64,000 nt of DNA from Siphonodentalium dalli (Eukaryota; Mollusca; Scaphopoda; Gadilida; Siphonodentaliidae): the NCBI GenBank assembly GCA_032622095.1, contig CP136066.1, positions 203,196,978 through 203,260,977 of the forward strand, in the 5' to 3' direction. Position numbers and translations under genes: made by a program. A model generated the notes under the pieces. It saw only the letters and a list, made by a program, of their open reading frames with translations. It was not told where the DNA came from and did no database searches. This document shows positions 4,401-60,920 of this stretch, piece after piece. The stretch's first letter is position 1, and every line of letters begins with the position of its first letter.

Positions 4401-6131
4401 CCCTACCACAAAATAGTTTTTCATGTGTTTGTCAGTTTTTTCATATTCCTCAACATTCCCATTAATTCAGCTGATTGTCACTTAACCCTTCCATGACTGG
4501 AGCTTGCTGCTAAATTTTGTGAAAACCCTGTATTAACCCTTTCAGTGCCAGGGGCCGATCTCATCGGCCATAATTTACGGTCTGTAAAATCGGCCCTAAA
4601 AAAATTCCAAAATTAAGATTTTTTTGGGTATGCTTTAGCATGCTATTGCGAATTTAAAAACAAACTGGATAAAACCTTAGGGGCATGTTATAACTCAAAA
4701 CTATCACCAAGTATTCATAGTAATAATTTTTATGCCCATGAAAAACGTAATATTCCCTGGCACTAAACCTACAAAATAAGCCTGTTAAAGAATATAAGAA
4801 AAATTATTAAAATTGTAAAAAATTGTCAAAAATAATATTAAACAAATGATGAAAAATTGTTAGGCCAATGCATTCTCTTATATATGCGAGGCGACCTATG
4901 GTCGACTCGCATATATAAGAGAATGCATTGGCACAGGGTATATGGGTTGATACAAAAATCGGACCAGGCACTGAAAGGGTTAATGCATTCTCTTATATAT
5001 GCGAGTCTCCCATAGGGAACCTGTCATATAAAAAGAACAATATTTGCCTTGACCTTGTAATCTAGTGCATTCTCTTATATGTGTGAGGCTCCTTATGAGA
5101 GACTCACATAATATATAAGAGAATGCACTGGCACATGATCTTTAATGTTGCAACAGCGCAGTTCACAAAATGAAAGTGTTAATACATAACTATACATAAT
5201 CATAACTAATGAAATATGTTGTCTGGGGAGGGATATCATATGGTCCAGAATCCGACTGAACGATCATTTAGTTTCAACTGGTGCTAGACTGCTAGTAATA
5301 TTTCAGCAAGCCAAACTTCTAATGCTTGATGACATTGGAAACTACTTATGCTTGAGGCCAAAGAACAAAATAATTGGGGTTTGGGTTTCCCTACCTACCC
5401 TATTTCAAACCCTCTACCATAAAGATTTTTTCGTGGTTTTTGAGAGATGATTCTGAATTTTTTTTATAGTTTTCAATGTCTCAGAATGAGTTGTTAACTT
5501 GTTATCTGACAAAGCATTGTTTTTATACAAAGATATTCAACATTAATGCGTCAAAATCTTGCAGAAGATACAAAAAGCCATAAGAATATCAAAATAAAAA
5601 TAAAATAAATAAATATTTTTTAATTTTTAGCCTACCTACCGACCGTTTATTTGACTTTGGCCTGATGACATTGGAAACTACTGGTACTTATGCTTGATGA
5701 CATTGAAAACATGCAGCTAATTAGAATATTGCATGACTACCTGATTCCTTATCCAATTTATTTACAAATCTAGCATATATAGTTAGCCATCAGCCACTCC
5801 CCCACCCACCACCCTCTTGCACTTACAATACATATAGTTTGTCTTAATTATAATTATTGTATTATTATATGGCTGTGGCCTATAAGCCATGACATACACA
5901 GAGCCCCATTACCTTACTGTAATTTATACTTTGATCATAAAAAAAACACTTCTTGAGTTTGAGCTTTTATTTGAACGTCAATTTCGTCCGCTTCCGAGTT
6001 ATGAAAATTGAAACAACCACAGTAAATTGATCGATTGACTTGCCTGCACAACCACCCGCCGCAAACTGCATGGCAGCTAAAACCACCGGACTTGTTGTCC
6101 TCTCAGGCACCTGCGGCATGTTAGTCGCCAT
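1314..6131 (-). CDS. SLC25A21: SLC25A21 mitochondrial 2-oxodicarboxylate carrier, 5' part (exons 1-3)
   Basis: Three exons on the minus strand join in frame: 6044-6131, 3080-3212 and 1314-1443, giving about 117 residues of a protein usually near 300. The product belongs to the mitochondrial carrier family, inner-membrane antiporters with three ~100-residue repeats. SLC25A21 exchanges 2-oxoadipate and 2-oxoglutarate for lysine and tryptophan catabolism. Visible are the carrier signature PLDLIKTR (P-x-[DE]-x-x-K-x-R) after the first membrane helix, the subfamily stretch RFQIQRGPDDPNRY, the EGPLSFYKG part of the signature, and GILPPLLAETPKRATKFF, which is characteristic of SLC25A21. The start at 6131 is the first ATG after an in-frame TGA; a second in-frame ATG is at 6119. 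Intron phases are 1, 2 and 0. Repeats 2 and 3 of the carrier are not in positions 1-1313, so the gene continues off the left edge. Introns are full of repeats. The identification is firm; the exact start is less so. Confidence 0.93.
1590..2125. repeat. Three diverged direct repeats with GGACGGACGGAC tail (intron 2)
   Basis: Units near 1600-1745, 1775-1895 and 1925-2065 share AACTCTAGAAC, TTGCCCTCATAG and AGTGAA(T/C)(A/G)TCCATACCA. The last unit runs into a GGACGGACGGACAAATGGACAG stretch. This looks like the internal repeats of an invertebrate dispersed element. Open frames here have no recognisable protein. Confidence 0.7.
2161..2296. repeat. 44-bp tandem repeat, three copies
   Basis: TCGAGTCTCGGAGAGTGGGA recurs at 2161, 2205 and 2249, a period of exactly 44 bp with near-perfect identity. 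It lies within SLC25A21 intron 2. Confidence 0.95.
3080..3212 (-). CDS. SLC25A21: SLC25A21 coding exon 2
   Basis: The acceptor is a good polypyrimidine tract ending TCTTCGCAG and the donor is GG|GTAAGG. The exon encodes the rest of helix 1, the PLDLIKTR carrier signature and a matrix loop reading RYSSLVDCFKKMYRTE, typical of this carrier. It is 133 nt, entering at phase 1 and leaving at phase 2. Confidence 0.93.
3958..4030. repeat. 30-bp tandem repeat
   Basis: TCAGCAC followed by a T-run and GGTGAGAGTGACTCCT repeats with period 30 at 3961 and 3991, with a partial third start at 4021. It lies in SLC25A21 intron 1. Confidence 0.85.
4482..5182. mobile_element. piggyBac-like MITE, older outer copy
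   Basis: The left end is TTAA|CCCTTCCATGACTGGAGC at 4482 and the decayed right end is TGAAAGTG|TTAA at 5179-5182. The interior includes two TGCATTCTCTTATAT-type hairpin segments. A related terminus (GACTGGAGCTTCCTG read in reverse) occurs at 63,677-63,766, confirming the family. A second MITE (4533-4983) is inserted at an internal TTAA. Confidence 0.65.
4533..4983. mobile_element. piggyBac-like MITE nested in an older copy
   Basis: It is bounded by TTAA on both sides, with perfect terminal inverted repeats CCCTTTCAGTGCC and GGCACTGAAAGGG. TTAA target sites with CCC termini are the hallmark of the piggyBac superfamily. The interior has no ORF and carries a ~70-bp hairpin at 4865-4933 (CCAATGCATTCTCTT arms), shared with the TTAACCCTTTACCCAAC family further right. 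Confidence 0.85.
6044..6131 (-). CDS. SLC25A21: SLC25A21 coding exon 1
   Basis: The exon begins with a short variable N-terminus and ends in AAGGCAG, the start of the first transmembrane helix (AAMQFAAGGCAG). The last base is phase 1. The donor is CAG|GCAAGT, a GC-AG donor, at 6042-6043. The only nearby GT (GCAA|GTCA) would give an in-frame TGA on joining to exon 2, so GC is the coherent choice. Confidence 0.88.
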
Positions 6132-9439: not shown

Positions 9440-11020
9440 TATATGTAAGTCAGCATTGTAACGGACACAACTTGAGCGTTTTTTGAATTTGCGATGTATA
9501 CTGGTCATTAGCCCTTTCTATATACTGAATTGATTCTCGTATTCAGTTATAAACGTATACATTGGAATGGTATATTATTCATTTGGAGAGCAGAAGACCG
9601 ACAGAAAAACAGATAATACAAGAGGAGAATATGATTCATATTCATTTGTGGGAAATGTTCAGATAATAAGTTCAACAAAACCACCCATGTTGAACTTATT
9701 ATCTGAACATTTCATAAGAACTACTCATCAATGAGTATTTAATATATGAAGAGTTATATATATATACACTTGGTTTGCGATCCAATATACACCTAATAAT
9801 ATTTGCTTTTGAATTTGTCCCGGAATCAAAATAGGTCGATACACTTGAACTACCTTTCTACGAGCATTATGTCCCAGAAAGACGCATCGAAGTCATAAAC
9901 AATACATAATAATTAGAACACGATGTTTGGGTACCAAACAAAAGGAGACATTGAACGGCATGGATAAAAAATTTCCTGATATGGTAGAAATAAAGAGCCT
10001 TTGTTTCACTTTTGTGCGAAAAATAGAAATGAAAATTGCCGTGACCACTGGTGCATGACAATATAATTATTTTTCAGAGCATATGAAACCGGTAAATCAA
10101 TATTTCGTGTTGATCATACCTCCTTCCAAATTACGCAAACATAATTTGGAAGCTCGGATGAGCTATGTCCGTTATACACGCCGTGATCATATTCCAAGTT
10201 TGAAACCTAGTTAGTTCAAATTAAGTATAATAATAAAATGACATATATATTTATATAAATATGTCATCTAGAAAACCGTATTAGTTATATCCCACGCACG
10301 TATACTGCTGTACAAAACACGACAAATAGTGAATATTGCCAACCCGATCATGCTGTTTATAAATTCCGCTTTGATTCACGATAATACACACCATTGCCTT
10401 CCAACACAGAAGAACACAGAGGTAGTAAAAGAAGATATGAAGGCATACGCTCGTCCACTTAATAAGTTTCCCAAAATTAACGTCATGCATTTTGATATTC
10501 AGTTGTGTGTGGCGCATCATGAAGTTAAATTTCTCGGTACGTTTACAGCGAATTCAATCTCAGAATTCCTGCCAAACGCAATCAAAGTGCCGCATCAATC
10601 AAGTTCGCCGCTAGATCTGTTGGCTGTGTTTACAGACCGTACTTTCTATACTGATTTATATATAAAGGAATGCTTTCTGTATTAATTGAGTAATCTGCCC
10701 AACGCCCTTTGGAATATATTTGATAAATTACGCTTCTCGCATATCTGTCAGAATATACGTGTTTTGTTTCTTATATTTTTCGAGCGGACCATTCCTGGAA
10801 TAGCTATATGTTGTCAGTTCATACATATTCTCTCAATTCTTGGCAATTCGCTTCTTTGAATGCGATGTATGCATGGTGTTCAGTATATGTTGTCAGTTCA
10901 ACCGAATAACACATTGAAATGTACTTAAAATCATATCAAGCTTGAAAATTTGTCTCAATTTCGCCCATGTGATGCGAAGAAAGAATTGAAATTGAATTGT
11001 CTGGCGTTTGAACAGAGATC
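9440..11020. other. Intergenic AT-rich stretch
   Basis: It contains a perfect 26-bp-arm hairpin at 9652-9713 and an AT palindrome at 10,238-10,266 (ATGACATATATATTT). An unrecognised 118-codon frame at 10,329-10,685 (+) has no family features or splice context, so it is not called as a gene. Confidence 0.5.
9652..9713. repeat. 26-bp perfect inverted repeat
   Basis: GAAATGTTCAGATAATAAGT begins the left arm (9652-9677). The right arm (9688-9713) is its exact complement across a 10-bp loop. Confidence 0.95.
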
Positions 11021-11029
11021 ATATTGCCG

Positions 11030-14000
11030 GTCCCTTCACCCAAGTAACCGCATCGTAGTTGAATCGTTTCAGGCTGAAGGCCGGGTATGGTGGCCGGAAT
11101 GCATTTTGCCGATCCCTTCCCCCAAGTAACCGCATCGTAGTTGAATCGTTTCAGGCTGAAGGTCAGGTATAGGGTAACCGGAGTGCGTTTTGTCGGTCCC
11201 TTCACCCTAGTAACCACATCGTAGTTGAGTCGTTTCAGGCTGAAGGCCGGGTATGGTGGCCGGAATGCATTTTGCCGATCCCTTCCCCCAAGTAACCGCA
11301 TCGTAGTTGAATCGTTTCCGGCTGAAGGCCGGGTAAGGTGACCGGAGTGCATTTTGCCGGTCCCTTCACCATAGTAACCGCATCGTAGTTGAATCGTTTC
11401 CGGCTGAAGGCCAGGTATAGGTTGGCCGGAGTGCATTTTGTCGTTCCCTTCACCCCAGTAACCGCATCGTAGTCGAATCGTTTCCGGCTGAAGGCCAGGT
11501 ATGGTGGCCGGAATGCATTTTGTCGGTCCCTTCACCCAAGTAACCGCATCGTAGTTGAATCGTTGCCGACTGAAGGTCAGGTATAGGGTGACCGGAGTGC
11601 GTTTTGTCGGTCCCTTCACCCTAGTAACCACATCGTAGTTGAATCGTTTCAGGCTGAAGGCCGGGTATGGTGTCCGGAATGCATTTTGCCGGTCCCTTCG
11701 CCCAAGTAACCGCATCGTAGTTGAATCGTTTCCGGCTGAATGCCGGGTAGGGTGGCCGGAGTGTATTTTGCCGGTCCCTTCGCCCTAGTAACCGCATCGT
11801 AGTTGAATCGGTTCCGGCTGAAGGCCAGGTATAGGGTGGCCGGAGTGCATTTTGCCGGTCCCTTCACCCAAGTAACCGCATCGTAGTTGAATCGTTTCCG
11901 ACTGAAGGCCGAGTAGGGTGGCCGGACTGCATTTTGCCGGTCCCTTCACCCTATAGTAACCGCATCGTAGTTGAATCGGTTTCGGTTGAAGGCCAGGTAT
12001 AGGGTGGCCGGAGTGCATTTTGCCGATACCTTCACCCAAGTAACCGCATCGTAGTTGAATCGTTGCCGGCTGAAGGTCAGGTATGGTGGCCGGAGTGCAT
12101 TTTGCCGGTCCCTTTACCATAGTAACCGCATCGTAGTTGAATCGTTTCCGGCTGAAGGCCAGGTATGGTGGCCGGAATGCATTTTGCCGGTCCCTTCACC
12201 CAAGTAACCGCATCGTAGTTGAATCGTTGCCGGCTGAAGATCAGGTATAGGGTGACCGGAGTGCGTTTTGTCGGTCCCTTCACCCTTGTAACCGCATCGT
12301 AGTTAAATCGTTTCCGGTTGAAGGCCAGGTATGGTGGCCGGAGTGCATTTTGCCGGTCCCTTCACCATAGTAACCGCATCGTAGTTGAATCGTTTCCGGC
12401 TGAAGGCCAGGTATGGTGGCCGGAATGCATTTTGCCGGTCCCTTCACCCAAGTAACCGCATCGTAGTTGAATCGTTGCCGGCTGAATGTCAGGTATAGGG
12501 TGACCGGAGTGCGTTTTGTCGGTCCCTTCACCCTAGTAACCGAATCGTAGTTAAATCGTTTCCGATTGAAGGCCAGGTATGGTGGCCGGAGTGCATTTTG
12601 CCGGTCACTTCACCATAGCAACCGCATCGTAGTTGAATCGTTTCCGGCTGATGGCCAGGTATAGGGTGGCCGGAGTGCATTTTGCCGGTCCCTTCGCCCC
12701 AGTAACCGCATCGTAGTTGAATCGTTTCCGGCTGAAGGCCAGGTATGGTGGCCGGAATGCATTTTGCCGGTCCCTTCACCCAAGTAACCGCATCGTAGTT
12801 GAATCGTTGCCGGCTGAAGGTCAGGTATAGGGTGACCGGAGTGCGTTTTGTCGGTCCCTTCACCCTAGTAACCACATCGTAGTTGAATCGTTTCCGGTTG
12901 AAGGCCAGGTATGGTGGCCGGAGTGCATTTTGCCGGTCCCTTCACCATAGCAACCGCATCGTAGTTGAATCGTTTCCGGCTGATGGCCAGGTATAGGGTG
13001 GCCGGAGTGCATTTTGCCGGTCCCTTCGCCCCAGTAACCGCATCGTAGTTGAATCGTTTCCGGCTGAAGGCCAGGTATGGTGGCCGGAATGCATTTTGCC
13101 GGTCCCTTCGCCCCAGTAACCGCATCGTAGTTGAATCGTTTCCGGCTGAAGGCCGGGTATGGTGGCCGGAATGCATTTTGCCGGTCCCTTCACCCAAGTA
13201 ACCGCATCGTAGTTGAATCGTTGCCTGCTGAAGGTCAGGTATATAGGGTGACCGGAGTGCGTTTTGTCGGTCCCTTCACCCTAGTAACCACATCGTAGTT
13301 GAATCGTTTCAGGCTGAAGGCCGGGTATGGTGGCCGGAATGCATTTTGCCGGTCCCTTCACCCAAGTAACCGCATCGTAGTTGAATCGTTTCCGGCTGAA
13401 GGCCGGATAGGGTGGCCGGAGTGCATTTTGCCGGTCCCTTCACCCTAGTAACCGCATCGTAGTTGAATCGGTTCCGGCTGAGGGCCAGGTATAGGGTGGC
13501 CGGAGTGCATTTTGCCGGTCCCTTCACCCAAGTAACCGCATCGTAGTTGAATCGTTTCCGGCTGAAGGCCGAGTAGGGTGGCCGGACTGCATTTTTCCGG
13601 TCCCTTCACCCTATAGTAACCGCATCGTAGTTGAATCGGTTTCGGTTGAAGGCCAGGTATAGGGTGGCCGGAGTGCATTTTGCCGATACCTTCACCCAAG
13701 TAACCGCATCGTAGTTGAATCGTTGCCGACTGAAGGTCAGGTATAGGGTGACCCTAGTGCGTTTTGTCGGTCCCTTCACCCTAGTAACCTCATCGTAGTT
13801 AAATCGTTTCCGGTTGAAGGCCAGGTATGGTGGCCGGAGTGCATTTTGCCGGTCCCTTCACCATAGTAACCGCATCGTAGTTGAATCGTTTCCGGCTGAA
13901 GGCCAGGTATGGTGGCCGGGATGCATTTTGCCGGTCCCTTCACCCAAGTAACCGCATCGTAGTTGAATCGTTGCCGGCTGAAGGTCAGGTATAGGGTGAC

Positions 14001-17000
14001 CGGAGTGCGTTTTGTCGGTCCCTTCACCCTAGTAACCACATCGTAGTTAAATCGTTTCCGGTTGAAGGCCAGGTATGGTGGCCGGAGTGCATTTTGCCGG
14101 TCCCTTCACCATAGTAACCGCATCGTAGTTGAATCGTTTCCGGCTGAAGGCCAGGTATGGTGGCCGGAATGCATTTTGCCGGTCCCTTCACCCAAGTAAC
14201 CGCATCGTAGTTGAATCGTTGCCGGCTGAATGTCAGGTATAGGGTGACCGGAGTGCGTTTTGTCGGTCCCTTCACCCTAGTAACCGCATCGTAGTTGAAT
14301 CGTTTCCGGCTGAAGGCCAGGCATAGGGTGGCCGGAGTGCATTTTGCCGGTCCCTTCGCCCCAGTAACCGCATCGTAGTTGAATCGTTTCCGGCTGAAGG
14401 CCAGGTATGGTGGCCGGAGTGCATTTTGCCGGTCCCTTCGCCCCAGTAACCGCATCGTAGTTGAATCGTTTCCGGCTGAAGGCCAGGTATGGTGGCCGGA
14501 ATGCATTTTGCCGGTCCCTTCACCCAAGTAACAGCATCGTAGTTGAATCGTTTCCGGTTGAAGGCCAGGTATGGTGGCCGGAGTGCATTTTGCCGGTCCC
14601 TTCACCATAGCAACCGCATCGTAGTTGAATCGTTTCCGGCTGATGGCCAGGTATAGGGTGGCCGGAGTGCATTTTGCCGGTCCCTTCGCCCCAGTAACCG
14701 CATCGTAGTTGAATCGTTTCCGGCTGAAGGCCAGGTATGGTGGCCGGAATGCATTTTGCCGGTCCCTTCGCCCCAGTAACCGCATCGTAGTTGAATCGTT
14801 TCCGGCTGAAGGCCGGGTATGGTGGCCGGAATGCATTTTGCCGGTCCCTTCACCCAAGTAACCGCATCGTAGTTGAATCGTTGCCTGCTGAAGGTCAGGT
14901 ATATAGGGTGACCGGAGTGCGTTTTGTCGGTCCCTTCACCCTAGTAACCACATCGTAGTTGAATCGTTTCAGGCTGAAGGCCGGGTATGGTGGCCGGAAT
15001 GCATTTTGCCGGTCCCTTCACCCAAGTAACCGCATCGTAGTTGAATCGTTTCCGGCTGAAGGCCGGGTAGGGTGGCCGGAGTGCATTTTGCCGGTCCCTT
15101 CACCCTAGTAACCGCATCGTAGTTGAATCGGTTCCGGCTGAGGGCCAGGTATAGGGTGGCCGGAGTGCATTTTGCCGGTCCCTTCACCCAAGTAACCGCA
15201 TCGTAGTTGAATCGTTTCCGGCTGAAGGCCGAGTAGGGTGGCCGGACTGCATTTTTCCGGTCCCTTCACCCTATAGTAACCGCATCGTAGTTGAATCGGT
15301 TTCGGTTGAAGGCCAGGTATAGGGTGGCCGGAGTGCATTTTGCCGATACCTTCACCCAAGTAACCGCATCGTAGTTGAATCGTTGCCGACTGAAGGTCAG
15401 GTATAGGGTGACCCTAGTGCGTTTTGTCGGTCCCTTCACCCTAGTAACCTCATCGTAGTTAAATCGTTTCCGGTTGAAGGCCAGGTATGGTGGCCGGAGT
15501 GCATTTTGCCGGTCCCTTCACCATAGTAACCGCATCGTAGTTGAATCGTTTCCGGCTGAAGGCCAGGTATGGTGGCCGGAATGCATTTTGCCGGTCCCTT
15601 CACCCAAGTAACCGCATCGTAGTTGAATCGTTGCCGGCTGAAGGTCAGGTATAGGGTGACCGGAGTGCGTTTTGTCGGTCCCTTCACCCTAGTAACCACA
15701 TCGTAGTTAAATCGTTTCCGGTTGAAGGCCAGGTATGGTGGCCGGAGTGCATTTTGCCGGTCCCTTCACCATAGTAACCGCATCGTAGTTGAATCGTTTC
15801 CGGCTGAAGGCCAGGTATGGTGGCCGGAATGCATTTTGCCGGTCCCTTCACCCAAGTAACCGCATCGTAGTTGAATCGTTGCCGGCTGAATGTCAGGTAT
15901 AGGGTGACCGGAGTGCGTTTTGTCGGTCCCTTCACCCTAGTAACCGCATCGTAGTTGAATCGTTTCCGGCTGAAGGCCAGGCATAGGGTGGCCGGAGTGC
16001 ATTTTGCCGGTCCCTTCGCCCCAGTAACCGCATCGTAGTTGAATCGTTTCCGGCTGAAGGCCAGGTATGGTGGCCGGAGTGCATTTTGCCGGTCCCTTCG
16101 CCCCAGTAACCGCATCGTAGTTGAATCGTTTCCGGCTGAAGGCCAGGTATGGTGGCCGGAATGCATTTTGCCGGTCCCTTCACCCAAGTAACAGCATCGT
16201 AGTTGAATCGTTGCCGGCTGAAGGTCAGGTATAGGGTGACCGGAGTGCGTTTTGTCGGTCCCTTCGGCCTAGTAACCACATCGTAGTTGAATCGTTTCAG
16301 GCTGAAGGCCGGGTATGGTGGCCGGAATACATTTTGCCGGTCACTTCACCCTAGTAACCACATCGTAGTTGAATCGTTTCCGACTGAAGGCCAGGTATGG
16401 TGGCCTGTGTGCATTTTGCCGTTCCCTTCACCCTAGTAACCGCATCGTAGTTGAATCGTTTCCGGCTGAAGGCCAGGTATGGTGACCGGAGTGCATTTTG
16501 CCGGTCCCTTCACCTAGTAACCACATGGTAGTTGAATTGTTGCCGACTGAAGGCCGGGTAGGGTGGTCGGAGTGCATTTTGCCGGTCCCTTCACCCTAGT
16601 AACCGCATCGTAATTGAATCTTTTCCGGTTGAAGGCAGGATAGGGTGGGCGGAGTGCATTTTGTCGGTCCCTTCACCCCAGTAACCGCATCGTAATGGAA
16701 TCGTTTCCGGTTGAAGGCAGGGTAGGGTGGCTGGAGTGCATTTTGCCGGTCCCTTCACCCTAGTAACCGCATCGTAATTGAATCGTTACCGGCTGAAGGC
16801 CAGGTAGGGTGGCCGGAGTGCATTTTGCCGGTCCCACCACCCTAGTAACCGCATCGTAGTTGAATCGATTCCGGCGGAAGGCCGGGTAGGGTGGTCGGAC
16901 TACATTTTGTCGGTCCCTTCACCCTAGTAACCGCATCGTAGTTTAATCGTTTCCGGTTGAAGGCAGGGTAGGGTGGCTGGAGTGCATTTTGCCGGTCCCT

Positions 17001-18320
17001 TCACCCTAGTAACCGCATCGTAATTGAATCGTTTCCGGCTGAAGGCCAGGTAGGGTGGCCGGAGTGCATTTTGCCCGACCCACCACCCTAGTAACCACAT
17101 CGTAGTTGAATCGTTTCCGGTTGAAGGCAGGGTAGGGTGGCCGGAGTGCATTTTGTCCGTCCCTTCACCCTTGTAACCGCATCGTAGTTGAATCGTTTCC
17201 GGTTGAAGGCAGGGTAGGGTGGCTGGAGTGCATTTTGCCGGTCCCTTCACCCTAGTAACCGCATCGTAATTGAATCGTTTCCGGCTGAAGGCCAGGTAGG
17301 GTGGCCGGAGTGCATTTTGCCGGTCGCACCACCCAAGTAACCGCATCGTAGTTGAATCGTTTCCGGCTGAAGGCAGGGTAGGGTGGCCGGAGTGCATTTT
17401 GTCGGTCCCTTCACCCTAGTAACCGCATCGTAGTTGAATCGTTTCCGGTTGAAGGCAGGGTAGGGTGTCCGGAGTGCATTTTGTCGGTCCCTTCACTCTA
17501 GTAACCGCATCGTAGTTTAATCGTTTCCCGCTGAAGGCCAGGTATGGTGGCCGGAGTGAATTTTGCCGGTCCCTTCACCTAGTAACCGCATCGTAGTTAA
17601 ATCGTTTCCGAATGAAGGCCGAGTAGGGTGGCCGCAGTGCATTTTGCCGGTCCCTTCACCCTAGTAACCGCATCGTAGTTGAATCCTTTCCGACTGAAGG
17701 CCAGGTATGGTGGCCGGAGTGCATTTTGCCGGACCCTTCGCCCTAGTAACCGCATCGTAGTTGAATCGTTTCCGATTGAAGGCAGGGTAGGGTGTCCGGA
17801 GTGCATTTTGTCGGTCCCTTCACCATAGTAACCACATCGTAGTTGAATCGTTTCCGGCTGAAGGCCAGGTATGGTGGCCGGAGTGCATTTTGCCGGTCCC
17901 TTCACCCTAGTAACCGCATCGTAGTTAAATCGTTTCCGAATGAAGGTCGAGTAAGGTGGCCGCAGTGCATTTTGCCGGTCCCTTCACCCTAGTATCCGCA
18001 TCGTAGTTGAATCGTTTCCGGCTGAAGGCCAGGTATGGTGGCCGGAGTGCATTTTGCCGGTCCCTTCACTCTAGTAACCGCATCGTAGTTTAATCGTTTC
18101 CCGCTGAGGGCCAGATATAGGGTGGCCGGAGTGCATTTTCCCGGTCCCTTTACTCTAGTAACCGCATCGTAGTTTAATCCTTATCGGATGCAGGCCGGGT
18201 AGGGTGGCCGGAGTGCATTTTGCCGGTCCCTTCACCCTAGTAACCGCATCATATAGTTGAATAGTTTCCAGGTATAGGGTGGCGGCTGTGACCGGAGTGC
18301 ATTTTTACAGTTCCCTTCAC
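11030..18320. repeat. ~83-bp satellite array, roughly 88 monomers
   Basis: A unit of 82-85 bp with core GTAACCGCATCGTAGTTGAA, TTTCCGGCTGAAGGCCAG and GTGCATTTTGCCGGTCCCTT repeats without interruption for 7.3 kb. Monomers fall into recognisable variants (ACCACATCG versus ACCGCATCG; GTATAGGGTGG versus GTATGGTGG; CACCATAG versus CGCCCCAG). Monomers right of 16,300 are more diverged and mostly carry GGCAGGGTAGGG. The array is GC-richer than its surroundings. Minus-strand open frames up to 277 codons come from the low stop content of the unit; the non-triplet period argues against coding. Confidence 0.97.
12878..16211. repeat. 1,660-bp higher-order repeat within the 83-bp satellite, two near-identical copies
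   Basis: Sequence at 12,878-14,551 recurs at +1,660 bp (14,538-16,211), a block of 20 monomers. In the parts compared I saw only isolated differences, e.g. CCGGATAG/CCGGGTAG near 13,405/15,065 and CCGGGATG/CCGGAATG near 13,918/15,578. A more diverged third copy is traceable at 11,600-12,060 with the same offset. This is the pattern of recent unequal exchange. Confidence 0.9.
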
Positions 18321-23614: not shown

Positions 23615-25815
23615 TTTTTTTTAATTCTTTATTGACAATATATACATGAACATATTCATATATTTAAAATACAGCATAATGACAATAACAAAAATAATGT
23701 CCTGGTATTTTCGGGAGGGGGGCTTTCGCTCGCAACTCACACACGCCTTACACACGTTCAAATTCGAAGACACCTCATGCGTGTTTTTGATTACACAGAC
23801 TATGTTTATGACTGGAATGTCATCAGAAATCGTTTTGTATGCTTTTAAATATACATGTAATTTATAGTCTCCGATATGATAAAACAAAAATGCCTCTATC
23901 CGTGCCCGGTATTTTATATAGCGTTAATTCGACCAACCATCAACAAGTGAAAAAACGAACATAATCACAAATAGTTATTTGTCCTCAAAGTACTTGGCAG
24001 GGCAAGGTATATCTCACACCATTCAAATTCGAAGTCGTTAAGGATATCTCTCTTTAGTGCTATATATTTCTCTAACCGGTATCTCTCATCAAGTTCACGT
24101 AGAAATGATTTCAGGGATAAGGTATCGGGGTCAAATTTGGTTTTGTATATGTAATATTTAAGCAATGTCAGAAATAAATTTTTGACACTGAAATTTTGCT
24201 GGCGGGGAGGGCCGAAAATTATATTGCTACGAGTGATAGAGATGTCCAGCTTGTGTTCATCCAGCCATTTTTGTGTGTAATTTATGAATAGTTTTACGGC
24301 GGAGCATTCATAGAATATGTGGGTAATGTTCTCAGGTAAATTACACCGGTTACAGTAATCGTCTACAGATATTTTCATAAGAAATAGCAATCTGTTGGTT
24401 CCCAAAATACGTGTATTTATCCGATATTGAAACCATTGTAATCTAGAATCTCGCAGACAATTGAATGGCGATGATAATATATGAGACCATGAACTTGTGG
24501 TTGTATTAGGTCCCATATCTCTTTTCCATTTTGATACACACAGTGGGAATTGACCATTGTCTGAGATAAGGAGGTTGTAAAATTCCTTACATCCATGTTT
24601 ACTTTTTGTTAGCAGGTGAATATTGTTTGGAATAAAGGGGGTCTCAGTGCTAGTGAGATCTTTTTTCGTCTGTTTTGATCAAATGCGGAGCTGCGTGTTG
24701 ACACTTTGCAATGTCAAGAAAGTGGTGGGTATGTCAAATTTGGCGGTGAAACTTTCGAGTGTGTGCAGTTTATTTCCTGGTGTGATAAGATCGTTTATAA
24801 ATAAGATGCCATTTTCCTTCCACTCGCTACTATTTATTGCGTCTTTATTCATTCGGAGTTCATCGTGGTTCCAAACAGTCTGAGTCGCTAGGGGTGAGTT
24901 ATCGTTTGGCATATTTTTCAAGTAACTCTTCCAAGCCATAAGAACGTCGCGCCAGAAAGGGTTCCCAGTTTTTGATAGAACAGTGTTGATGTATTTTGAG
25001 CCATAAGTCGCTAGTAAGGGATCTGAAATTTCTCGGGGTGTTATGTTCAACCACGGGGTTGACTTCGTGATACATCTGCGCATCCAGGTTATTTTGAGAG
25101 CATCGTTGAAATGTTTTATATTAATCATTTTTAGTCCGTCATATTCATAATCCCTGCAAAGTTGTGTACGACTGACCCTGTCGCGTTTATTGTTCCATAC
25201 AAATTTGAATAGAATTCTATTGATTTCGTCAAGGATATCTTGCTTTGGATTTGGGAGGGATTGGAGAAGGTGTACAATATTTGGAATGAGAATAGACTTG
25301 ATAATTGTTATTCTACCGATGGGTGAGATATGTCTATGTTTCCATTTGTCTATTACTTTTTCATGTTGTCGATCTTGTCTCTGAAATTAATTTCTGGTAT
25401 TTCGGACATATTGGTGCTGTATTTAATTCCGAGGGCTGTGAATGTATTCGAAACTTTAAGTTTGCATTCTGAATGAACTGATGTGTTCATTTTCTGAGAG
25501 CCCAACCAGACTATTTGGCATTTGTCTAGATTAGCCTTCAGCCCGCCCGACATAGTAGCAAATGATTCAAGCACGGATAGAGATTCTCTGAGGCTGGCTT
25601 CGCTCCCATCTAGTACAAGTGTAGTGTCATCTGCATATTGGTTTATTTTGTATTCTGTCTCGTCGAGGGTAACACCTATTATTTTCTTATTTCCTCTTAT
25701 CATTTCAGCGAATATCTCGGCGCATAAGAGAAAAATATACGGTGATAACGGGTCGCCTTGCCTACAGCCTCTGGTTGGCTTGAAAAATGAAGACAAATTG
25801 CCATTAACTAAGACG
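23615..25815 (-). mobile_element. 5'-truncated LINE insertion with target duplication and poly(A)
   Basis: The satellite sequence beginning GCTGACCATCGATGG is duplicated for 21 bp on both sides (23,594-23,614 and 25,816-25,836). Read on the minus strand the element ends in CAATAAAGAATT followed by about 12 A residues, i.e. poly(A) signal plus tail at 23,615-23,640. Removing element and duplication restores a 410-bp unit spacing, normal for the satellite. The element starts inside the reverse transcriptase domain, so it is strongly 5'-truncated, as expected from target-primed reverse transcription. Confidence 0.93.
23965..25815 (-). pseudogene. LINE ORF2 reverse transcriptase and C-terminal zinc knuckle, frameshifted
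   Basis: The N-terminal part contains RT motif B (RGCRQGDPLSPYIF) and motif C (NQYADDTTLVLDGS). The middle carries the thumb/linker region, and the C-terminal third has a CNRCNLPENITHIFYEC zf-RVT knuckle preceded by LQWFQYRINTRIL, typical of L1/Tx1-like LINEs. Two frame changes break it: one in an A-run near 25,352 and one near 24,683. Between them the frames continue without other stops, so decay is light. Endonuclease, ORF1 and RT motif A are missing through truncation. Clade assignment to L1/Tx1 is by motif style only. Confidence 0.88.
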
Positions 25816-26053
25816 GCTGACCATCGATGGATGTTTGTAGCGCCGTCAACGAACAAAACAACCGACCATCCGACCGACCGACTACGTCCCGGATTCCCTA
25901 TGAACGTTGTGCGCTGACAACGCATCCATGTATTCAACCCTTGATGTATATTAAGAAATAACATAGTCAGTGATGAAACGGAACAACTGTTCTAATCGGA
26001 TCAAGTCAAGGGAGAATTGATAAAGGCTCAACCAGCATGCAATCACAATATAT

Positions 26054-43645: not shown

Positions 43646-44520
43646 ACCAGATCACATTATATACAACATATTCCACATTATATACAACATATTCCACATT
43701 ATATACAACATATTCCACATTATGTACAACATATTCCACATTATATACAACATATTCCACATTATATACAACATATTCCACATTATATACCACCACCAGA
43801 TCACATTATATACAACATATTCCACATTATATACAACATATTCCACATTATATACAACATATTCCACATTATATACAACATATTCCACATTATATACAAC
43901 ATATTCCACATTATATACAACATATTCCACATTATATACCACCACCAGATCACATTATATACAACATATTCCACATTATATACCACCACCAGATCACATT
44001 ATATACCACATATTCCACATTATATACCACCACCAGATCACATTATATACCACATATTCCACATTATATACAACATATTCCACATTATATACAACATATT
44101 CCACATTATATACCACCACCAGATCACATTATGTACAACATATTCCACATTATATACCACATATTCCACATTATATACAACATATTCCACATTATATACC
44201 ACCACCAGATCACATTATGTACAACATATTCCACATTATATACCACATATTCCACATTATATACAACATATTCCACATTATATACCACATATTCCACATT
44301 ATATACCACCACCAGATCACATTATGTACAACATATTCCACATTATATACCACCCAGATCACATTATATACAACATATTCCACATTATATACCACCCAGA
44401 TCACATTATATACTACATATTCCACATTATATACAACATATTCCACATTATATACAACATATTCCACATTATATACCACCACCAGATCACATTATGTACA
44501 ACATATTCCACATTATATAC
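43646..44520. repeat. 21-bp minisatellite with 23-bp variant units
   Basis: ATTCCACATTATATACAACAT repeats with period 21. Every few units a longer variant ending ACCACCACCAGATCA adds about two bases and shifts the reading frame. Long open frames on both strands (up to 298 codons, plus) simply read these units in successive frames. A single inverted unit occurs at 44,819-44,866. Confidence 0.95.
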
Positions 44521-58653: not shown

Positions 58654-59094
58654 TTAACCCTTTACCCAACAAACCGGCCAAAAATGGCCAAATAAAGCTT
58701 CAACAGCCTAAAATATCTTCGGTCTGTCTCAATAACACCATACAAATATGGATATCATTGGAACCGGTTCATTGACCACATTGTGATGGTTACAGTTATG
58801 CCCTGTGCCAATGCATTCTCTTATATATGCGAGTCGACCATAGATCGCCTCGCATATATAAGAGAATGCATTGGCCTAAAAAAAATCTTTTTTAACACTT
58901 TTTACCATTTTTTCTTACATTCTTTAACAATTTTATAATTTTTTCTTACATTTTTTAACAATTTTTATAATATTTTTGTATATTCTTTGACAATTTTATC
59001 ATTTTTAATATGTGTTAAGCCAATGCATTCTCTTATATATGCGAGGCGACCTATGGTCGACTCGCATATATAAGAGAATGCATTGGCACAGGGT
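58654..59094 (+). mobile_element. TTAA-flanked piggyBac-like MITE, copy H (right end lost)
   Basis: The left terminus TTAACCCTTTACCCAAC is intact. The right side stops at CACAGGGTAAA after hairpin 2 without the terminal CCC/TTAA. The spacer is longer than usual because a TTTTTTAACAATTTTTATAA segment is duplicated. Confidence 0.9.
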
Positions 59095-59660
59095 AAAAAA
59101 ATCAAGCATCTATAGCATCTGGCTGTCGGTTGTTTTTGCGATGAAGGCCCCAGAATATCAATTGATAAAATAAAATAAGCCAAACTATTTGTGCGAGCAT
59201 GTTTTTACTGGCACGTTTGTATGGCATTTGTGCAGGCATTTTCTCATTGAAACCCCTATGGTACCAGAATATGAACGGTAACGTGCATACACTGCAAATA
59301 CAAATGTTCAGATTTGAACACCAAAAATGCAACAGATATTGAAGTATGTGTTCAATGTTGAACACTAGCGTTCAAAATAGTTAACACATACATGCGTTCA
59401 GAACACATGCAACAGATATTGAACACCAAACAGGCGTTCAATGGAGTAATTTGAACTCTATGTGTTCAAATTTTTTAACGCTGGTGTTCAATTTTGAACA
59501 CTATGTGTTCAAAGTGTTCAAATTTTTAACGCTGGTGTTCAAATGTTTTTAACGCTTGTGTTCAATTTTGAATACTATGTGTTCAAATGTTTTTAACGCT
59601 GGTGTTCAATTTTGAGTACTATGTGTTCAAATTTTTAAACGCTACTAGTGTTCAAAGATA

Positions 59661-60295
59661 TTAACACTGGCATTCAAGTTTGAACACTAGTGTCGTGTCG
59701 TCCTCGTTGGACAACACAGACCCTGTCTTGAAAACAGCAGCCTTTGCCTTTTTCTTTGGTGGTGGTGAGTTCAAACCATCAACGTGGCCACCTTTCTTCT
59801 TTTCTGCCATTCGCATATGCCGAATTTTCTGGGAAAACTGATGAAGTAGGAAACTCTGAAAATATCAATAATATTTGGTCATTTATATGTGACCATAATA
59901 TGTGACCATAAGAATCATGACATGATTTGTACATGCTGCACATATGATTATGAAGCAAAACCAATTTACAGGTGCTCAGTCAGTGATATATTCTATAACT
60001 TCTATACTACTAGTAGTACTACTAGTTCCAAATTTGTATTTTGAAAGAAATGTATGTAGCCTAGGCCTATACTTATAATATATACCACCGAATAGATCTA
60101 CAATTTTCTACATGCATGACTACTATATACGTATTCCGAATTGTCAAGGTTATACGTATAGCAACTTATACTGATGAAAATGAATAATTATGAGTTCATG
60201 ATGATGAAAATTGAAATTACATAATTTCTAAATTATGGGTACAATAATTTAATGTGGATACTCACCACTAACGTGCACGTAGAATATATGTCCAT
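59661..60295 (-). CDS. Two-exon small ORF inside TIR element, probable captured gene 5' end
   Basis: Exon 1 codes 10 residues from an ATG at 60,295 and ends TTAGTG|GTGAGTAT (donor at 60,265). Exon 2 begins after TGATATTTTCAG at 59,855 and joins in phase 0. The spliced ORF has 74 residues: a short hydrophobic/basic start, then MAEKKKGGHVDG, LNSPPPKKKAKAA (nuclear-localisation-like), VFKTGSVLSNEDD, and a tail TTLVFKLECQC with its stop codon inside the transposon arm. Normal composition, consensus splice sites and an upstream CRE cluster support a gene start; the family is unknown. The last ~10 codons come from arm sequence, so the original exon was probably truncated on capture. An internal ATG at 59,810 could also serve. 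Whether it is expressed cannot be told. Confidence 0.45.
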
Positions 60296-60451
60296 GCGTC
60301 GAAATAAAACAAATCCGCTAAGCCTATTTACTGAACATCGAGTTTCTTGAGCCACACAAATTTTACAATAACACAACCACAATGGCGCTATTCATGTATC
60401 TCTGCTAATTAAATTATTTCCCTCCAAATCATCATTTGCGCGCGTAATAGC

Positions 60452-60486
60452 GTGACGTACCTCATTCATGACGTCATATGACGTCA
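60452..60486 (-). promoter_or_regulatory. Cluster of CRE/ATF sites upstream of the captured exons
   Basis: Two perfect TGACGTCA palindromes (60,469-60,476 and 60,479-60,486) and a TGACGTAC near-match (60,453) lie 160-190 bp upstream of the exon 1 ATG. A CGCGCG patch lies at 60,439-60,443. The arrangement is that of a CREB/ATF-responsive, TATA-less promoter for minus-strand transcription. Confidence 0.5.
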
Positions 60487-60920
60487 TTTAAGCGCGGATG
60501 GTATTTGAACACCAGCGTTCAAAATATTGAGAACACCAGCGTTCAAAATATTGAACACCATAGGCCTAATATATTGAACGCATAATTGAACACATCGTGT
60601 TCAATTTATAAGGATTCTATTGAGCTATCTTAAACGCCAGTGTTCAAATGGTTGAACAAGAATTACGACTTGAACACATGGCGTTACGGATTGAACACTT
60701 CACATTCAAATTTGAACTCTTTGTGTTATCATTTGAAGACTTGGCGTTCAGATTTGAACACATATCGTTACGATTTGAACACATGTGTTGAATTTACGCG
60801 TAAAAAATAGAACACATATATTTGCAGTGTATACAATGCATATTAACACATTTATATAACGACATAAGAAGTTAAATTTCGGTAGTTCCAAATGTATAAC
60901 CGGGCTACCAACGCATTGCC

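Follow-up and report, generated by a model that had tools for sequence, protein, structure and literature searches.

In one set of CACTA/CMC transposons, the ends read CAC...GTG and insertion is accompanied by a 2-bp duplication (PMC6004678); in the wider CACTA/CMC group, the ends are given as CA..TG and the duplications as 2 to 5 bp (PMC12730594). The En/Spm system has, in addition, subterminal sites for TNPA and deletion derivatives that are moved in trans (PMC2613891). Other animal CACTA elements that have been described start with CCC (PMC1636069, PMC4298943). Pack-TIRs, which contain gene fragments and are defined by an unambiguous parental copy, number 370 in 100 animal genomes (PMC8277862). 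In Hydra, CIDE-N stands beside transposase domains among the over-represented domains, and the passages of that study on which we draw describe no transposon bearing a CIDE-N domain (PMC7642931).

The element described here lies in a 64,000-nucleotide stretch of the Siphonodentalium dalli assembly (the window). Its family has CAC...GTG ends and a 2-bp duplication, as CACTA/EnSpm (CMC) elements do, and its subterminal repeats resemble the TNPA sites of En/Spm. The family differs from other animal CACTA elements in starting with CACTG rather than CCC and from CACTA/EnSpm elements in that no transposase was seen and the gene carried has a CIDE-N domain. Like a Pack-TIR or Pack-TYPE element, the window element is a TIR element with a gene fragment, a putative promoter, and introns inside, but its insert is common to the family and no parental copy was found in the assembly. 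The CIDE-N domain is familiar from cellular genes. The family's exon encodes the second half of this domain, over the Pfam cut-off, as in the CIDE-N genes DFF40/CAD, DFF45/ICAD, CIDE, and DREP, but it lies between transposon arms and its partner exon is KKK rich. We think it likely that the window element, which is probably non-autonomous, derives by internal deletion from a longer, CACTA-like element that carries a CIDE-N gene of several exons.

Ends, target-site duplications, and subterminal arms

The sequence-only reading of this DNA had placed a transposon-like element at 59287 to 60832, and the terminus ATACACTGCAAATA does occur exactly at 59287-59300 (plus strand) and 60819-60832 (minus strand). 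With up to three mismatches, it has 20 matches against 11.2 expected, a number reached by 1 of 100 shuffles; the remaining 18 each carry three mismatches. Comparison of copies placed the limits slightly further in, at CACTG (59290) and CAGTG (60829), with the flanking ATA outside the element (Table 1). All 11 two-ended copies have CACTG and CAGTG ends, the left end of L050 reading CACTGTAAATA. A TA target duplication is a feature of Tc1/mariner elements. In this family, the equal flanking 2-mers found in 8 of the 11 copies are TA in seven and CG in one, two of the eight (the window copy and L052) representing one insertion that was later duplicated. The flanks are unequal in L039, L041b, and L042.

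Table 1. Features of the element, in window coordinates
Feature	Position	Strand	Details
Whole element	59290-60829	.	1,540 bp, CACTG...CAGTG; ends and flanking 2-mers compared in 11 two-ended copies
Left target-site duplication	59288-59289	.	TA; copy comparison
Right target-site duplication	60830-60831	.	TA; copy comparison
Left terminal inverted repeat	59290-59300	+	CACTGCAAATA
Right terminal inverted repeat	60819-60829	-	
Left subterminal arm	59301-59692	.	20 TTGAACAC-like sites (at most 1 mismatch), 13 reading GTGTTCAA
Right subterminal arm	60503-60818	.	17 TTGAACAC-like sites (at most 1 mismatch), 12 reading TTGAACAC
Two perfect CRE palindromes	60469-60476, 60479-60486	.	TGACGTCA
CRE-like near-site	60453-60460	+	TGACGTAC
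Predicted short exon	60266-60295	-	10 codons in the frame of the sequence-only reading
Predicted intron	59856-60265	-	GTGAGT...TTTTCAG, 410 nt
Predicted second exon	59661-59855	-	Contains the KKK-rich stretch; 59661-59692 belongs to the arm; stop codon, 59661-59663
Piece of exon 2 also in a different repeat	59703-59779	-	77 bp

Of the 27 exact TTGAACAC motifs in the window, 25 lie inside the element (3.3 would be expected for the whole window), in keeping with the motif-rich inverted arms noted earlier. Sites with at most one mismatch occur about 5 times per 100 bp in both arms, compared with 0.25 in the core and 0.17 in the rest of the window. The arm sites are partly palindromic and often 21 to 23 bp apart; many neighbors in the same orientation in the window copy are spaced at 21 to 25 bp, and five successive spacings in the right arm are 21 bp. 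The window copy has subterminal repeat arrays, as CACTA/EnSpm (CMC) elements do. An autonomous CACTA/EnSpm (CMC) partner would encode a DDE transposase with C(2)C and H(3-4)H motifs. No transposase was found among 15 ORFs from the longer copies (including some of those in L047) and their surroundings; 14 had no Pfam family, and the 15th was a neighboring zinc-finger ORF. Nor did a complete partner come to light. The CACTA class and a complete parent element are therefore inferred, and CACTA membership, judged by ends, duplications, and arms, is unproven.

The terminus was also sought outside the assembly. A scan of viral contigs gave 30 stretches, roughly as many as we estimate that 16 fixed bases would yield by chance. 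The element aligns with these 30 loci over 21 to 31 bp at most, and they were dropped. Phage records gave no match.

The window holds other repeats as well. A repeat of ~440 bp with two internal hairpins (58654-59093) lies ~200 bp to the left of the element. It recurs at least nine more times in the window (near 4942, 34268, 36884, 38049, 40386, 41884, 45284, 53550, and 62501), in copies that are 78 to 95% identical over the longest aligned pieces. A satellite array of ~88 copies of an 82-bp unit occupies 11020-18269, and a 21-bp tandem array at 43653-44520 is open in all three plus-strand frames. At 23965-25991 lies a broken non-LTR retrotransposon, whose reverse transcriptase is over the Pfam cut-off and whose zf-RVT is just below it. 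Rfam and tRNA scans of the window gave nothing.

A dispersed family with a common promoter block and exon 1

A DNA search of the 2.23-Gb, nine-contig assembly found at least 81 matching pieces, which form a dispersed family; 40 of 221 candidates were scored, so that the counts are lower bounds. Near-full-length copies at 85 to 90% identity, centre included, lie at least on contigs C2, C8, C3, C9, and C6. We read 20 stretches, 17 with family pieces and 3 with a 77-bp match to exon 2. The promoter block and exon 1 are present in all 11 two-ended copies; the KKK-rich second exon survives complete or almost complete in seven (the window copy, L039, L040, L041a, L041b, L042, and L043), and all or most of it is missing from four (L046, L047, L050, and L052). 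Given this distribution, the promoter and exons are inherited family sequence rather than a private capture by the window copy. The earlier description was right that this is a TIR element of nonautonomous appearance and that it contains a promoter-like block and two exons that can be spliced. Of the other TIR elements for which it had asked, those with the insert exist as family copies and those with an arm but another centre at least as fragments. Of the outcomes that it had named as refuting it, a parental gene was indeed missing from our protein search, but the centre is not the same in all members.

L052, which lies 250 kb from the window copy, has flanks identical to it at 176 of 192 and 508 of 513 aligned bases and lacks the KKK-rich exon. 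On the evidence of these flanks, the two copies are the same insertion, duplicated, so the centre is unstable even within one insertion. In L047, L050, and L051, the shared intron breaks off at nearly one position (q712-719), and different sequence is joined to the left arm; in L051, another stretch adjoins that arm. A C2H2-like motif seen in L051 by pattern only was set aside, Pfam having given nothing. One relative, L055, consists of a left arm only (69%), with no window-type centre.

A tandem array on C3 (L045:600-8096) is made up of five head-to-tail 1,590-bp units, which are element copies without the promoter block and right arm. Zinc-finger ORFs (L041:59-979, by Pfam, and L041:6113-6766, by eye) lie ~90 bp before both element copies of L041, as if gene and element had been duplicated together.

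Predicted promoter and splice model of the window copy

The two perfect CRE sites noted from the sequence are present, TGACGTCA occurring at 60469 and 60479. None of 100 shuffles contained the pair, but the pair amounts to a palindromic 10-bp unit repeated. The 65-bp block upstream of exon 1 contains both sites and eight CpG. Two adjacent perfect sites are found in 3 of 17 copies, and at least one lies in the promoter block of 14 of 17. The motif suggests that the element's putative promoter may respond to CREB; a literature search on CREB and transposons listed nothing of use.

A minus-strand gene model identical to that of the sequence-only reading was recovered, with a GTGAGT donor from 60265, an intron extending to 59856, and an in-frame join of 74 amino acids (aa) whose stop codon falls within arm sequence. 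The short exon may be just the last part of a longer 5' exon, and other ATGs can be seen by eye upstream of the proposed start. When the sites of this strand are scored with splice weights, the donor comes 5th among 3,318 GT sites, and the acceptor comes 136th among 2,786 AG sites. A scan of both strands gave seven equally good gene models, this one included, with five acceptors, so the gene model taken alone is weak. Conservation among the copies supports it: the ATG, short exon, and donor are found in 17 of 17 copies (with a short exon of 25 rather than 30 nt in one) and the acceptor in 11 of 17. This count of 17 includes one duplicated pair and one unit of the L045 array and leaves out the fragments L054 and L055 and the four further L045 units. 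The 74-aa frame is open in three of the 11 acceptor-bearing copies (the window copy, L040, and L042) and broken in the other eight.

Among 11,623 equal-length open frames in the window, only those at exon 2 reach its codon-use score, calculated with a human codon table; 35 of 2,000 shuffles reached that score, and 865 of 2,000 had some open frame. The exon-2 frame was not enriched in RNY periodicity, which 1,795 of 2,000 shuffles matched. The exon has a GC content of 46%, compared with 29% in the intron, and over eight copies it has fewer gaps (1.6% versus 13.3%), a substitution identity barely above that of the intron (95.2% versus 94.2%), and a pooled pN/pS of 0.56, a weak signal. The 74-aa protein gave nothing over the cut-off or below an E value of 0.03 against Pfam and PDB, the KKK-rich exon has no Pfam family over its cut-off, and of 198 pattern matches to the protein in GTDB genomes, none was confirmed.

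Sister copies carry a CIDE-N exon

Three sister copies, L047 (5.2 kb), L048 (long), and L050 (1.65 kb), have the same right arm, promoter block, exon 1, and first part of the intron as the window copy and contain an exon that encodes the latter half of a CIDE-N domain. The exon of L050 has two stops inside. In a Pfam scan of the L047 and L048 exons, both exceeded the PF02017 gathering score of 23.5, L047 with an E value of 5.2e-10 and 39.7 bits and L048 with an E value of 3.3e-6 and 27.5 bits, the matches covering only positions 29 to 76 and 38 to 76 of the domain, respectively. The best PDB match of the exon was CIDE-A (E, 2.1e-5). A self-made pattern for the first half of CIDE-N had no match in L047, L048, or L049.

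Only L048 has both the CIDE-N exon and the KKK-rich exon. It matches the window element over q682-1545 (59968-60831) and q438-659 (59724-59945), with 6.9 kb in between that includes the CIDE-N exon, and this layout gives the order exon 1, CIDE-N exon, KKK-rich exon. The copy is broken and full of insertions. Inner left-arm sequence ~25 kb from its right end is a candidate for its left arm; its outer left end was not found. The L048 CIDE-N exon lies between a TTCCAG acceptor and a GTGGTGAGT donor and contains a shift. The phase in which it ends does not lead into the frame that the KKK-rich exon has in most copies, so the two exons may not be read together. The KKK-exon frame that it does enter contains stops in the window copy and in L044. 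Because the CIDE-N exit phase leads to this other frame, the original protein may have differed from the 74-aa reading.

Inside the span of L048, a series of long ORFs (L059:1181-5748) may be a nested insertion; none has a Pfam family. By eye only, nuclease-like and CXC motifs are suggested by a GCD...GKGRALK stretch and a cysteine-rich end.

Search for a source gene and for CIDE-N elsewhere

As in a Pack-TIR, TIR-element sequence stands on both sides of the gene stretch. A parental gene with the same exons, which the sequence-only reading had anticipated, was not found in a six-frame protein search of the assembly with exon 2 (65 of 65 candidates scored, E up to 0.001), and comparison of the core with the window itself gave no parental copy within the 64 kb. 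Of the 37 matches to exon 2, 13 are family copies, and the other 24 places contain a piece of ~27 residues; the six of these places that were read are all one other repeat. The matches do not include L039, a broken copy, so the search would overlook a source that is broken or has diverged strongly. The other repeat spans several kilobases (L056, L057, L058, L066, L067, and L068) and has the 77-bp exon-2 piece at 94 to 96% identity; it was rejected as a parental gene, the six places read being one repeat and 2.9 kb of L056 containing no ORF longer than 99 aa. Among the 13 family copies and the six other places read, no parental copy apart from the transposon appeared, and the closest CIDE-N exon outside the family, on C1, has 57 to 58% amino-acid identity.

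A Pfam CIDE-N search of the assembly returned six matches, including L047 and two on C2, 20 kb apart, and the only place with the first half of the domain was on C2. With the family CIDE-N exon as the query, we found its three copies, the C1 exon, and 19 more exons on seven contigs, at 44 to 51% identity, 13 of the 19 having the same score. L082, one of the 19, has in the 1.4 kb read an open exon of ~90 codons that is CIDE-N by Pfam (E, 6.5e-7) and no arm motifs; by eye, it is entered with two carried bases and left at GTTAGT. The likeness of these 19 scattered exons hints at mobile CIDE-N genes, and L082 and the 18 others are possibly a young mobile or amplified CIDE-N gene family.

Like that of the C1 and C6 genes, the CIDE-N exon of L047 and L050 begins with two carried bases; the L048 count reads 0 because of the shift inside its exon. 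The same exon boundary was not clearly seen in the C2 and C4 CIDE-N genes, and the exon after the CIDE-N exon on C6 (L073/L081) was not recognized. We also considered whether the C1 exon (L075) belongs to an element gene: a diverged left arm lies 4.8 kb downstream, but the upstream stretch L076 has no right arm, and this candidate was not relied on.

How the window copy may have arisen

We favor, as the probable explanation, short forms that arose from long ones by deletion rather than long forms that arose by insertion. The long form would have had, in order, a right end and arm, the CRE promoter, a short exon 1 with its donor, a long intron, the CIDE-N exon, a further intron, the KKK-rich exon, more sequence, and the left arm. 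In the window copy, one deletion would have brought together the beginning of the first intron and the last part of the intron that precedes the KKK-rich exon, and a second would have joined that exon to the left arm, the source of the stop. A deletion from intron to intron would leave exon 1 and the KKK-rich exon still spliceable. The short copies differ in what they retain: the window type keeps the KKK-rich exon, L047 and L050 have the CIDE-N exon, and L046 and L052 are without the KKK-rich exon. A transposase supplied in trans would recognize the ends and arms. The promoter and splice sites would be relics of the element's own gene, any transcript being incidental and truncated. Since CIDE-N is known from cellular genes, this gene would likely be an old acquisition, derived from a cellular CIDE-N gene long ago.

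The sequence-only reading had preferred a Pack-type capture of the 5' end of a host gene, and a version of this in which the promoter and exons of a host CIDE-N gene were taken up, for example by gap filling, and then multiplied, with the window copy as a typical product, strikes us as unlikely. Part of the proposal stands: sister copies have a CIDE-N exon, coding for a domain of cellular genes, behind the same promoter; promoter, exons, and introns are present as unspliced genomic DNA; Pack-TIRs are documented in animals; and relatives of the arm without the window centre exist at least as fragments (L055). The recent capture from a host gene does not fare as well, since protein searches revealed no parental gene, the closest outside CIDE-N exon has 57 to 58% amino-acid identity, and every two-ended copy read has the promoter and exon 1 as inherited family sequence. 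It is very unlikely that this is an ordinary MITE-like element with no gene, in which the promoter, CRE, and splice features arose by chance. In favor of that reading, six other gene models in the window are as good, RNY periodicity is absent, and most acceptor-bearing copies have a broken 74-aa frame; against it, the family retains donor and acceptor, exon 2 is without indels, and the CIDE-N exon of the sister copies exceeds the Pfam cut-off and has its own acceptor.

Most improbable of all, in our judgment, is that the copies disperse through the genome a functional CREB-responsive promoter together with a nuclear protein of 74 residues, with an effect on the host. The paired CRE sites in a CpG-bearing block and the frame left open in the window copy, L040, and L042 would fit such a role, but the frame is broken in the majority of copies, few retain the CRE pair, and ATGs precede the proposed start. 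The deletion explanation leaves room for an extension that we regard as speculative and, on balance, quite unlikely: that the CACTA-like lineage encodes its own CIDE-N protein, which would polymerize along the TTGAACAC arm sites as TNPA does for En/Spm, the 19 scattered exons being a more recent mobile family that carries a gene of this kind. CIDE domains form head-to-tail helical filaments (PMC8647176), and a CIDE-N protein could therefore polymerize along the arm sites.

Implications

Half of a CIDE-N domain is an unexpected passenger for a DNA transposon. The domain is known from apoptosis and lipid droplets, and if the CIDE-N gene is resident in the element, this filament-forming domain would have a branch in mobile DNA, which would be a possible source of lineage-specific expansions of CIDE-N genes. 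A promoter and spliceable exons between terminal inverted repeats are not necessarily a captured host gene; they can be the deletion remnant of a gene of the element's own.
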